This document shows, piece after piece, positions 1 to 60,006 of a DNA stretch of 64,000 bases. Below the pieces are notes generated by a model. That model ran no database searches and was not told the DNA's origin. It was given only the letters and a program-made list of their open reading frames with translations. Source of the stretch: Cyanobacteriota bacterium (GTDB lineage: Bacteria > Cyanobacteriota > Cyanobacteriia > PCC-6307 > Cyanobiaceae); NCBI GenBank assembly GCA_026389335.1, contig JAPLIB010000033.1, forward strand, positions 1-64,000, given 5' to 3'. Every line of letters begins with the position of its first letter. The stretch's first letter is position 1. The position numbers were made by a program, and so were the translations under genes.

Positions 1-1
1 C

Positions 2-2196
2 CGGAACCCCGTTCCGGCCACGTTCGAGCTTTTTGCAAAGCCCGGCCACTTCGACCGCACCCTGGCCAAAGGTCCCAAAACCACCACCTGGGTTTGGAAC
101 CTCCACGCCAACGCTCACGATTTCGACAGCCACACGAGTGACCTCGAAGAGGTCTCTCGCAAGATCTTCTCAGCTCACTTCGGCCATTTGGCCGTCATTT
201 TCGTCTGGCTCAGCGGCGCCTTCTTCCATGGAGCCCGCTTCTCCAACTTCACTGGTTGGTTGGCCGATCCCCTGCACGTCAAGCCCAGTGCCCAGGTGGT
301 CTGGCCAATTTTCGGCCAGGAAATCCTTAATGGCGATGTGGGTGCCGGCTTCCACGGCATTCAGATCACCTCCGGCCTCTTCCATGTCTGGAGGGCCTGG
401 GGCATCACCAATGAGACGCAGTTGATGGCTTTGGCCATCGGTGCTCTGGTGATGGCCGGCCTGATGCTCAATGCAGGCGTCTTCCATTACCACAAAGCAG
501 CACCCAAGCTGGAGTGGTTCCAGAACGTTGAGTCGATGCTCAACCACCATCTGGCCGGTCTGCTGGGCCTGGGTTCCCTGTCCTGGACAGGCCACCTTCT
601 GCATGTGTCCCTGCCCACCACCCAGTTGATGGATGCCATCGACGCCGGCAAGCCGCTGGTGCTCAACGGCAAGACCATCGCTTCGGTGGCGGACATCCCC
701 CTGCCCCACGAGTTCCTCAACCAGGATCTGCTGGCCCAGCTTTACCCCGGCTCACCTTCAAGGGTGGGCTGAATCCTGTCACCGGCAGTCTCTGGATGAC
801 CGACATTGCGCATCACCATCTGGCGATTGCGGTGTTGTTCATCGTGGCCGGTCACATGTACCGGACCAACTGGGGTATCGGTCACAGCATCAAGGAGATT
901 CTTGAGGGTCAGAAGGGCGATCCCCTGCTGTTCCCTGCTCCTAAAGGTCATGACGGACTCTTCGAGTTCATGACCACCTCGTGGCACGCCCAATTGGCAG
1001 TGAACCTGGCAATGCTTGGTTCACTGACGATCATCGTGGCTCACCACATGTATGCGATGCCGCCGTATCCCTACATCGGCATTGACTATGCAACCCAGCT
1101 GTCGCTGTTCACCCACCACACCTGGATCGGTGGCTTCCTGATCGTCGGTGCCGGCGCCCACGCCGCCATCGCCATGATCCGCGACTACGACCCCGCCAAG
1201 CACATCGATAACGTGCTGGATCGGGTGCTCAAGGCTCGCGATGCCCTGATCAGCCACCTCAACTGGGTGTGCATCTGGCTGGGCTTCCACAGCTTCGGTC
1301 TTTACATCCACAACGACACGATGCGTGCCCTGGGCCGTCCCCAGGACATGTTCAGTGACACTGCGATCCAGTTGAAGCCGATTTTTGCTCAATGGATCCA
1401 GGGTCTGCACGCCGCTGCCGCCGGCACCACCGCTCCCAACGCCCTTGCCGGTGTGAGTGAGGTGTTCAACGGTGCCGTTGTTGCCGTTGGTGGCAAGGTG
1501 GCCGCCGGTCCGATCCCGCTGGGAACGGCCGATTTCATGGTCCACCACATTCACGCCTTCACGATCCACGTCACCGTGCTGATCCTGCTGAAGGGCGTTC
1601 TCTATAGCCGTAGCTCCCGCCTCGTTCCCGACAAGGCGAATCTGGGCTTCCGCTTCCCCTGCGACGGCCCCGGCCGTGGCGGTACCTGTCAGGTGTCGGC
1701 TTGGGACCACGTGTTCCTCGGCCTGTTCTGGATGTACAACTCCCTGTCGATCGTCATCTTCCACTTCAGCTGGAAAATGCAGAGCGACGTGTGGGGCACC
1801 GTCAATGCCGACGGCACCGTCCAGCACATCACCAATGGCAACTTTGCGCAGAGCGCCATCACCATCAATGGTTGGCTGCGTGATTTCCTCTGGGCTCAGG
1901 CCGCACAAGTGATCAACAGCTACGGCTCGAGCTCCAGTGCGTACGGTCTGATGTTCCTTGGTGCCCACTTTGTCTGGGCCTTCAGCCTCATGTTCCTCTT
2001 CAGTGGCCGCGGCTACTGGCAGGAGCTGATTGAGTCCATCGTCTGGGCTCACAACAAGCTGAGGGTTGCTCCCGCCATCCAACCGCGGGCGCTCTCCATC
2101 ACCCAGGGCCGTGCGGTCGGTGTCGCTCACTATCTGCTGGGCGGTATCGCAACGACCTGGTCCTTCTTCCTGGCCCGCATGATTGCGGTCGGCTGA
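2..2196 (+). CDS. psaA: Photosystem I core protein PsaA (P700 apoprotein A1), 5' truncated by window edge and frameshifted
   Basis: PsaA is one half of the PSI reaction-centre heterodimer in the thylakoid membrane; it binds P700, A0, A1 and shares the FX 4Fe-4S cluster with PsaB. The frame opens at base 2 (the start lies outside) and matches the family as far as LAQLYPG. It then shifts at about 750/751: frame 2 runs to a stop at 770-772, and the protein resumes in frame 1 with [12 protein letters not shown] and continues to ...ARMIAVG at 2196. The FX-binding loop [12 protein letters not shown] is present in the second part. About 20 codons that the family has between LYP and LTF are missing, an estimated deletion of 58 nt, which explains the shift. 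psaB follows 20 nt downstream. Identity is certain; whether the break is real or an assembly error cannot be told from this sequence. Confidence 0.95.
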
Positions 2197-2216
2197 CCTC
2201 CACCTGACCTTTCCCA

Positions 2217-4447
2217 ATGGCAACGAAATTTCCTTCGTTCAGCCAGGGTCTGGCACAGGACCCGACAACCCGCCGTATTTGGTACGGCATCGCCACGGCT
2301 CACGACTTCGAGAGCCATGACGGAATGACGGAGGAGCGGCTTTACCAAAAGCTGTTCTCCACCCACTTCGGTCACCTGGCGATCATCGGCCTCTGGGTTT
2401 CGGGCAACCTGTTCCATATCGCCTGGCAGGGCAACTTCGAGCAGTGGGTCGCCGATCCCCTGCATGTTCGTCCCATCGCTCACGCGATCTGGGATCCCCA
2501 CTTCGGCCAAGGCGCCATCACCGCCTTCACCCAGGCGGGCGCTTCCTCTCCGGTGAACATCGCTTATTCCGGTCTGTACCACTGGTGGTACACGATCGGC
2601 ATGACGACCAACGCCGAGCTGTATCAGGGTTCCATCTTCATGATGATCCTGTCGGCCTGGGCTCTGTTTGCCGGTTGGCTCCACCTTCAGCCCAAGTTCC
2701 TGCCTTCCCTGGCCTGGTTCAAAAACGCTGAATCCCGCCTCAACCACCACCTCGCCGTTCTGTTCGGCTTCAGCTCGATTGCCTGGACTGGTCACCTGGT
2801 TCACGTTGCGATTCCTGAATCCCGTGGTGTGCATGTCGGTTGGGACAACTTCCTCTCGGTGGCTCCCCACCCCGCAGGTCTGGCTCCCTTCTTCACCGGC
2901 AACTGGGGCGTCTATGCCCAGAACCCCGACACGGCCAGTCAGCTGTTCGGCACCTCAACCGGTGCAGGTACGGCGATCCTTACCTTCGTTGGTGGCTTCC
3001 ATCCCCAGACCGAATCTCTCTGGCTCACGGACATTGCCCATCACCACCTGGCGATTGGTTGTCTGTTTGTGATCGCTGGTCACATGTACCGGACCAACTT
3101 CGGTATCGGCCACTCGATTCGCGAGATTCTTGAAGCCCACAACCCCCCCAAGGGCACGGCACTCCTTTCGGAGGTGCTCTCGGCGCTGGCCACAAGGGCC
3201 TCTACGACACCATCAACAACTCCCTGCACTTCCAGCTGGGTCTTGCTCTGGCGTCCCTCGGGGTGGTCACAAGCCTGGTGGCGCAGCATATGTATGCGCT
3301 GCCGTCCTACGCGTTCATCGCGAAGGACTACACAACGCAGGCTGCGCTGTATACCCACCACCAGTACATCGCCATCTTCTTGATGTGCGGTGCCTTCGCT
3401 CACGGTGCGATCTTCTTCATCCGCGACTACGACCCCGAGGCCAACAAGGACAACGTCCTGGCCAGAATGCTTGATCACAAGGAAGCCATCATCAGCCATC
3501 TCAGCTGGGTTTCCCTGTTCCTCGGCTTCCACACTCTGGGTCTGTATGTCCACAACGACGTTGTCGTTGCTTTCGGAACGCCCGAGAAGCAGATCCTGGT
3601 GGAGCCAGTGTTTGCCCAGTTCGTCCAGGCCGCCAGTGGCAAGGCCCTGTACGGCATGGATGTGTTCCTCTCCAACCCCAACAGCCTGGTCAGTAATGCA
3701 CCTGGCCTCGGTGCCGTCTGGCTCCCCGGTTGGCTGGATTCGCTCAACGCCGGCAACAACTCCCTGTTCCTCCAGATCGGTCCTGGTGACTTCCTGGTGC
3801 ACCACGCCATTGCGCTTGGTCTCCACACCACCACCTTGATTCTGGTGAAGGGTGCCCTTGATGCTCGTGGTTCGAAGCTGATGCCCGATAAAAAGGACTT
3901 CGGTTATTCGTTCCCTTGCGACGGCCCCGGCCGTGGCGGCACTTGTGACATCTCTGCCTGGGACTCTTTCTATCTGGCTCTCTTCTGGGCGCTCAATACG
4001 GTGGCCTGGGTCACCTTCTATTGGCACTGGAAGCACCTAGCCATCTGGCAGGGCAACGTCGCTCAGTTCAACGAATCCAGCACCTACTTGATGGGCTGGT
4101 TCCGCGACTACCTCTGGCTCAACAGCTCACAGCTGATCAACGGGTACAACCCGTTCGGCTCGAACAACCTGGCCGTCTGGTCCTGGATGTTCCTGTTCGG
4201 CCACCTGGTCTGGGCAACCGGCTTCATGTTCTTGATCTCCTGGCGGGGTTACTGGCAGGAACTGATTGAGACCATTGTCTGGGCGCACCAGCGCACCCCG
4301 CTGGCGAACCTTGTCGGCTGGCGTGACAAGCCCGTTGCTCTCTCGATCGTTCAGGCTCGCGTGGTCGGTCTAGCTCACTTCACTGTGGGCTTCATCCTGA
4401 CCTACGCTGCTTTCCTGATCGCTTCCACCTCCGGCAAGTTCGGCTGA
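2217..4447 (+). CDS. psaB: Photosystem I core protein PsaB (P700 apoprotein A2), frameshifted
   Basis: PsaB is the partner of PsaA in the PSI reaction centre and holds the other ligands of FX. The start [12 protein letters not shown] is standard. Family-like sequence runs to HNPPKGT at about 3157, where the frame breaks; it resumes two frames over with [15 protein letters not shown] and continues to a normal C-terminus (TSGKFG). The break coincides with a tandem copy of GGCAC (3153-3157 and 3158-3162); removing one copy restores one continuous frame. The FX loop [12 protein letters not shown] lies in the second part. It sits 20 nt after psaA, the usual dicistronic arrangement, and ends in a strong terminator at 4483-4513. 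Length without the insertion would be about 740 residues, normal for PsaB. Confidence 0.95.
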
Positions 4448-5006: not shown

Positions 5007-5498
5007 TCAGTTGACGCTCCAGACGCCACCGGCGATGTTCACCAGTGGCGCAACCAGGGCCGTGCTGCAAAGGAACCAGGCGAAGGCGGCACCACCGCAG
5101 CCACCGAGCCAGAAGCCGCTGGCAAACTCGGCCCAGCCGGCCTTGGTGAACAGATCAGCGGGAGGATTGTCGATGGTGGCGTCTGGGGGCTGGACGTTGG
5201 GGCCATTTCCGGCCGTGCCATAGATCGAGAGGCACACCGTGAGGATCGACACCAGACCGATGGTGGCCAGCAGGCCGGCGGTGCTGGAGTATTCCGTGGC
5301 GCGCAGCGGACCGGTGATGGCAAAGGGGCCGTAGAGAAAGAAGCCATGGGCCATGCCCACTTCCAGTCCCCGACGGTTGGGCGAGAGGGATGGCCTGTAG
5401 GCGGGTAGAGCGTTCAGGAACGCCCGGGTGAAATAGCTGCTGTTGACGGGGGTCGCCAGGTTGCCGACGCAGGGGTCGGCCACGGGGGTCACGGTCAT
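5007..5498 (-). CDS. psaL: Photosystem I reaction center subunit XI (PsaL)
   Basis: PsaL is the integral membrane subunit at the centre of the PSI trimer and is needed for trimerisation in cyanobacteria. The 163-residue product has the typical hydrophilic N-terminus ([20 protein letters not shown]), the [12 protein letters not shown] segment around residue 45, and hydrophobic stretches at about 65-95 and 120-155. It lies just downstream of psaI (55 nt gap), the usual psaI-psaL pair, and is followed by its own terminator. Length and sequence are normal for picocyanobacteria. Confidence 0.96.
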
Positions 5499-5553: not shown

Positions 5554-5670
5554 TCAGTCGCGCGCTTCGATCACGTTGAACAGCAGGGCCATGGCAACAG
5601 CTGGGCCGAGGATCCCCACCAGGGGAACAAGCACGGATGGGAGCCAGGCGGCCGCAAATTCTCCAGTCAT
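5554..5670 (-). CDS. psaI: Photosystem I reaction center subunit VIII (PsaI), 38 aa
   Basis: PsaI is a single-span PSI subunit that docks PsaL and supports trimer formation. The 38-codon ORF begins [19 protein letters not shown] and ends NVIEARD before TGA; the middle is one continuous transmembrane helix. Size, the PxxxxPLVGILxPA pattern and the position directly upstream of psaL all fit PsaI. The shared promoter should lie in 5671-5791, the interval facing the divergent gene at 5792. No clear RpaB (HLR1) or NtcA site could be defined there. Confidence 0.93.
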
Positions 5671-32429: not shown

Positions 32430-33593
32430 GTGAAATTGATCGGCGGTGCCAGCAACCAGGACCTCGCTGCGATCGAGGATCTGGCGGGCCTGTACAGCCT
32501 GGTGGGGGTTCACTGCCTCGACCTGGCGGCCGATTCGGCCGTGGTGGCGGCGGCCCGCCGTGGCATCAGCTGGGCCGAAATCCGCGGCGCGGCAAGACCC
32601 TGGCTGATGGTGAGCCTCAGCGATGGGGCCGACCCCCACTTCCGCAAGGCCTGGTTTGATCCGGCTTGCTGCCCCCCCACCTGTGCGCGGCCCTGCGCCC
32701 GGGTCTGTCCGGCCCTGGCGATCCCGCCGCTGCCGCCGTCTGCAGCGGCCAGCCTGGGCCGGATCGATGACCCAGATCCGCGATCGGGATCAAGCCCGTT
32801 GTCGGGTCCGGGTTCTGGCGCCTCCGGTGCGGCGGCCCCCAGTGCGGCGGCCCCCGGTGTGCTGGCCGACCGTTGCTACGGCTGCGGCCGCTGCCTGCCG
32901 ATCTGCCCCCTGGGGCTGATCGAGGAGCGGGAGCAGCACCTGCCCGCCGCCCAGGTGGCCGCCCTGCTGGCGCAGTTGCAACCGGATGCGGTGGAGCTCC
33001 ACACCCGGATCGGCCGTGCCGAGGCCTTCGCCGAGCGGCTGGCCCAGGTGTGCTCGGCGGGGGTGCCGCTGCGGCGGCTGGCGGTCAGTTGTGGGCTGGA
33101 GTCGGCGCTGACGCTGGCGGGCGACGGCCCGGCGATGCCCATGCCCATGCCCATGCCGACGCCGGAGGCCCTGGCGCAGGAGCTCTGGCAGCGCCATGGG
33201 CAGCTGCTGCAGGCAGGGCTGGCGCCGCTCTGGCAGCTCGATGGTCGACCGATGAGCGGCGATGTGGGGGCCGGCACAGCCAGGGCCGCCGTGCAGTTGC
33301 TGGGCGCCGTGGCGCCGTTGGCGCCGCCGGGACCTTTGCAGCTGGCGGGCGGCACCAACGAGCGCACCCTGCCCCTGGTGCGCTCGTTGGATCCAGCCCT
33401 GGGGCGGGCCGTGGCTGGTGTGGCCTTCGGCAGCGTCGCCCGGGCGCGGCTGCAACCGCTGCTGCTGCAGGCCCAGACGCGGGGCGGACGGCTGCTTGAT
33501 CAGGTTGATCTGCTGCCGCTTGCGCTGGCGATCTGCACGGAGCTGGTGCGGCCCTGGCTCACCCGCCGCTTCCAGCGTGACCTTCCAGCGTGA
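32430..33593 (+). CDS. ldpA: Light-dependent period protein LdpA (Fe-S protein of the circadian input)
   Basis: LdpA carries Fe-S clusters and relays redox state to the Kai clock in Synechococcus elongatus, influencing CikA stability. The 387 residues contain VKLIGGASNQDLAAIEDLAG, the Cys cluster DPACCPPTCARPCARVCPA, a ferredoxin-like CYGCGRCLPICPLGLIEE, and LDGRPMSGDVGAGTARAAV. The GTG at 32430 is the first canonical start, yet family-like PPEQALEQGRW lies upstream in frame (from about 32397), and the frame has only a stop at 32346 before it; an ATG at 32345/32348 is in another frame. A 13-nt tandem repeat covers the stop. Residues 100-135 and an MPMPMPMP run are low complexity. Confidence 0.92.
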   Translation: MKLIGGASNQDLAAIEDLAGLYSLVGVHCLDLAADSAVVAAARRGISWAEIRGAARPWLMVSLSDGADPHFRKAWFDPACCPPTCARPCARVCPALAIPPLPPSAAASLGRIDDPDPRSGSSPLSGPGSGASGAAAPSAAAPGVLADRCYGCGRCLPICPLGLIEEREQHLPAAQVAALLAQLQPDAVELHTRIGRAEAFAERLAQVCSAGVPLRRLAVSCGLESALTLAGDGPAMPMPMPMPTPEALAQELWQRHGQLLQAGLAPLWQLDGRPMSGDVGAGTARAAVQLLGAVAPLAPPGPLQLAGGTNERTLPLVRSLDPALGRAVAGVAFGSVARARLQPLLLQAQTRGGRLLDQVDLLPLALAICTELVRPWLTRRFQRDLPA

Positions 33594-59574: not shown

Positions 59575-60006
59575 TCAGGCTTCGTAGGTGGCTTTGCCGC
59601 TGAACTTGAGGCCGGCGGGGTTGGGGTTGGCGCCGATGCGGCGGGGGTTGTGACCCACCATGGGGCGGCCTTCATTCACCCGCTCGGGGAAGACGCCGTC
59701 CTTGGGATGGAGGAACTCGGTGTCGCCGCCGGGGAAGATCCGGTAGATCTTGTAATCCTCGATGCGGGGCTTGAACTTGGTGCGCAGCTGGGTGCCGAGG
59801 GCCAGGCACTGCTCCTTCCGCGCAAAATACATGAGGTTTTCGCCCTCATTCATTTCGGCGGCGCCACCGGTGGGCAGTTCAAAGGCCTGGGCCTTGGAAC
59901 TGGTCCAGGTGATGGCGTACTTCTCTTCGGTTTCGGCTGCGTTCAGCAGACCACCGGTGCTGCCGATGTACTTCGGAAGTTGACCCTTGAGGGCAGTCGC
60001 TGACAT
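59575..60006 (-). CDS. psaD: Photosystem I reaction center subunit II (PsaD)
   Basis: PsaD is the stromal (cytoplasmic-side) extrinsic PSI subunit that docks ferredoxin. 143 residues; [40 protein letters not shown] and [20 protein letters not shown] are hallmark blocks. It is followed by a terminator and then trpE, an arrangement usual in picocyanobacteria. Confidence 0.97.

Follow-up and report, generated by a model that had tools for sequence, protein, structure and literature searches.

Frame breaks in the adjacent photosystem I genes psaA and psaB at the end of a draft Cyanobium-like contig, probably caused by local misassembly

The window, the 64,000 nt analysed here, begins where contig C89 (82,588 nt) begins, and this point (position 1) falls inside psaA. 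Both core genes of photosystem I (PSI), psaA and psaB, lie on the plus strand in the first 4.5 kb, and neither has a single open frame over the whole protein, the break being at 750 in psaA and near 3153-3162 in psaB. Each of the four pieces, two of psaA and two of psaB, is matched by the PF00223 profile (Photosystem I PsaA/PsaB). The 5' part of psaA (1..772, +) begins with the contig and is closed by a stop at 770-772; in the translation of 2-772, LAQLYPG is followed by SPSRVG and then by this stop. The rest of the protein resumes in another frame from 750 and stays open to 2196 (750..2196, +; open reading frame and profile match). The sequence-only reading had described this break, and it is confirmed. 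At 750..751 (+) the sequence lacks 58 nt that relatives have, and the position of the gap is uncertain by 1-2 nt. The absent stretch amounts to 19 codons and 1 nt, encodes FGAGISAFFTGNWAAYSDF in close relatives, and its segment aligns gap-free in the best PDB match, the PsaA of 10kf/6kif/6kig.

The figure of 58 nt had been an estimate, offered with the proposal to align the region to related strains. That alignment has now been run and the estimate proves exact. The search of the genus with window 1-4447 as query returned 42 genomes including the genome itself, and 36 of the 41 others span both flanks of 750, the remaining five (G007, G010, G016, G017 and G055) not covering both sides. All 36 carry the extra 58 nt. 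For 33 of them the evidence is a pair of matches lying exactly 58 nt further apart in the relative than in the query; G040 and G049 show the extra sequence in the alignment, and in G050 one continuous match exceeds its query stretch by 58 nt. The psaA junction is found in 1 of the 42 genomes, namely its own. It was seen in none of the stretches of genome_contigs and viral_contigs, where the own genome is perhaps not included, and the plasmid collection gave no match when searched with psaA. Among the matches listed in a literature search, none dealt with a broken psaA in Cyanobium. Within the genome, no intact second copy of psaA was found. The missing 58 nt are also absent from the rest of the assembly, where the best match away from the psaA break is 19 nt long and lies in psaB.

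The gene just downstream, psaB, is also frame-broken, which had been missed in the sequence-only reading. Its 5' part (2217..3158, +) and its 3' part (3159..4447, +), the latter open in another frame, are each supported by an open reading frame and a profile match. The frame is broken by a tandem GGCACGGCAC region (GGCAC; 3153..3162, +), which exceeds by 5 nt the corresponding sequence of every one of the 25 relatives that could be aligned at this place (19 in one alignment and 6 more in another). The two breaks lie in adjacent genes, within 2.4 kb.

The congeneric picocyanobacteria (Cyanobium, Synechococcus and Aphanothece records) have an intact psaA-psaB operon, with the same gene order, neighbours and PF00223 family. 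The operon of genome G054 is 97% identical to the window from 751 to 4447. Compared with these operons, psaA here is 58 nt shorter and psaB 5 nt longer. Among the fetched relatives, psaA is one open frame in 20 of 20 and psaB likewise in 20 of 20, as far as their contigs reach. In terms of codons that differ from G054, the ratio of synonymous to nonsynonymous is 14:2 to the left and 46:2 to the right of the psaA break, and 23:4 to the left and 41:2 to the right of the psaB break. These counts indicate purifying selection on either side of both breaks, with the downstream parts normally constrained until very recently. Constraint downstream of a break is as expected of an error, or of a very young lesion.

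The contig end at psaA is accompanied by a second version of the gene, and this too had gone unnoticed in the sequence-only reading. Contig C31 (33,522 nt) carries the region upstream of psaA and the start of the gene, and ends inside it. Its last part (33113-33522) overlaps window 1-410, with 126 identical nt, then 29 mismatches, and then 78 identical nt. The mismatches mark a stretch (127..332, +) where the end of C31 has a different version of psaA. Between positions 110 and 350 the sequence on C31 agrees with that of G021, another species of the genus, at 239 of 240 nt, while the closest genome to C89 at the same positions is G054, at 97.5%. Just upstream on C31 (31823-33122), 10 of 13 bins of 100 nt are nearer to G054 and 1 is nearer to G021, with 2 ties. 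From the mismatches in the overlap and the likeness of C31 to G021, it follows that two versions of psaA meet at this gene in the assembly. A contig end or a second sequence version at the same gene is what an artefact may leave behind, and here both are found.

We also searched for changes of closest relative at the breaks. At psaA, no significant change point was obtained in any of five relatives (permutation 52 to 588 of 1000), with an uncorrected Fisher p of 0.03 for G052 and above 0.06 for the other four. At psaB, the differences to G054 number 26 of 303 left of the break and 7 of 293 right of it (Fisher p 0.001), and the best change point, at 3184 (permutation 3 of 1000), fits a join there in this one of four relatives. 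For G052 and G011 the change points fall off the break, at 3322 and 3400, and G015 has none below 0.05. A chimeric join marked by a switch of closest relative is unsupported at psaA and weakly supported at psaB (1 of 4 relatives).

Recombination between repeats shared by psaA and psaB was rejected, since the longest exact words in common measure 23 nt (1660/3917), 22 nt (850/3078) and 19 nt (1177/3419), and none is at a break. The two genes also share a 164-nt stretch at 71% identity, which has its start at 751 in one copy and its end at 3142 in the other; we take it to be ordinary psaA/psaB homology. As a separate observation, psaB in window 2920-3150 departs unusually far from each of the eight aligned relatives (76-88% in the bin 2926-3000) and has residues without counterpart in them, as if this part came from another strain or from a recombination tract.

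As for the other conserved genes, a census was made with 66 non-overlapping open reading frames of G015 that are conserved in G011, some of them likely antisense shadow frames. It covered C89 and C31, that is 116 kb of an assembly of 4.05 Mb. On these contigs 64 of the frames were found, 54 intact and 10 flagged, and after inspection of the flagged ones the clear frame breaks among the 64 are those of psaA and psaB only. In five of the other eight the stops fall early in the reference frame (query residues 4 to 113); another two show no stop in an alignment that begins at residue 20 or 52, and the last is a shadow frame antisense to an open gene. Six of these eight are flagged also in G054 or G052. 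The same census in relatives flagged 8 of 59 in G054, 8 of 60 in G052 and 3 of 66 in G011, never psaA or psaB. No genome-wide tendency to error was seen in the 116 kb of C89 and C31. A candidate third frame split at C89 67326-68230 was rejected: here the reference frame runs antisense to a gene with an open frame on C89.

Decay of other PSI genes, as would accompany a natural loss of the photosystem, was not found among psaD, psaF, psaI, psaJ and psaL, which are all open. On the minus strand of the window lie an intact psaL (5007..5498; open reading frame and profile match), an intact frame of 38 aa (5554..5670), which we take to be psaI, and psaD in an open frame (59584..59988; profile match and open reading frame). 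A break in psaF, suspected from a partial profile match, was rejected because the reading frame is complete. An open psaJ-like frame, presumably psaJ itself, lies elsewhere in the genome. Also elsewhere in the genome, rbcL is open, and so are two genes of PF00421 (PSII antenna family). The PF00124 profile (psbA/psbD family) has five matches, two full-length and open and three fragments. These fragments (C139:2-397, C31:22-234 and C69:3769-4422, the third being a locus cut short) lie directly at contig ends or close to them, which means that contig ends cut further conserved genes in this draft. The assembly is reported with a completeness of 99.39% and a contamination of 0.5%.

The sequence-only reading had left two options for psaA, a wrong sequence or an extraordinary genome, and the evidence now favours the former. 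Both breaks are very probably local errors of assembly or gap closing in the draft genome of a Cyanobium-like picocyanobacterium. This is argued from the fact that psaB is broken too, from the contig end inside psaA beside a second version of it, and from the unbroken state of the other genes checked; the purifying selection seen on both sides of both breaks also favours it. The highly conserved psaA and psaB sequence of more than one strain may have tangled the assembly, and pieces would then have been misjoined, so that one join lost sequence and the other kept a short overlap without merging it. In that case the organism would have an ordinary psaA and an ordinary psaB, and on the best reading of these sequence comparisons the record would not represent a cyanobacterium without PSI. 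Several results count against misassembly: the contamination is just 0.5%, the 58 nt are absent elsewhere in the assembly, psaA has no significant change point, and at psaB the change points of G052 and G011 fall elsewhere. If the breaks are errors, the psaAB locus of this assembly is unreliable, and the case shows why a single draft contig is a poor basis for inferring gene loss.

It also weighs against an error that deletions of microhomology size and short tandem duplications arise as real mutations. Both changes resemble such ordinary events, a deletion in psaA and a 5-nt tandem duplication in psaB, and the lesions may be real and very recent, in a culture or population with broken psaA and psaB that is either fixed or mixed with intact cells, and mixotrophic or fed by its neighbours. 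We consider this unlikely, though it is the alternative that survives best. The constraint downstream of the breaks is compatible with a very young lesion, and a mixed population would be consistent with finding two versions of psaA in one assembly. On the other hand, two independent events would be needed in adjacent genes at a contig end, the remaining genes of PSI and PSII that were checked have open frames, and neither lesion is shared by any relative.

The premise that PsaA is strictly essential for photoautotrophy, from which the two options had been drawn, needs a caveat, and this caveat speaks for real lesions: PMC13354564 describes PSI-less Synechocystis evolved to photoautotrophy in the laboratory. 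The same paper reports that evolution was unsuccessful for a psaAB deletion strain lacking the fusA change (PMC13354564), which speaks against real lesions and makes a spontaneous, natural PSI-less case less likely. If the record were true, it would resemble those Synechocystis lines in having lost PsaA and PsaB while keeping PSII and Rubisco; the lines differ in carrying engineered replacements or deletions together with adaptive fusA and further mutations (PMC13354564), a kind of adaptation to which nothing in the present analysis points. Real breaks would mean a naturally PSI-less cyanobacterium, and such a double lesion would be of interest because PSI is dispensable in the evolved laboratory Synechocystis (PMC13354564). 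A natural or cultured Cyanobium population that has both PSI core genes freshly broken and lives without PSI, perhaps by mixotrophy or beside intact neighbours, is in our estimate quite improbable.

Finally, a working PSI in spite of a true record, through programmed frameshifting or through split pieces joined at the RNA level, is hardly credible. The downstream frames are open and conserved, and Chlamydomonas chloroplasts have a psaA that is split and trans-spliced. But a frameshift at psaA would still omit 19 residues that are present in each of the 36 relatives spanning the site, the missing sequence is not even partly found elsewhere in the genome, two unlike events would be required, and the junction occurs in 0 of 41 congeners.

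Lastly, the contig CALPNT020000188.1 is titled as a Bifidobacterium breve MAG, yet it bears a Cyanobium-like psaA, and its label looks wrong.
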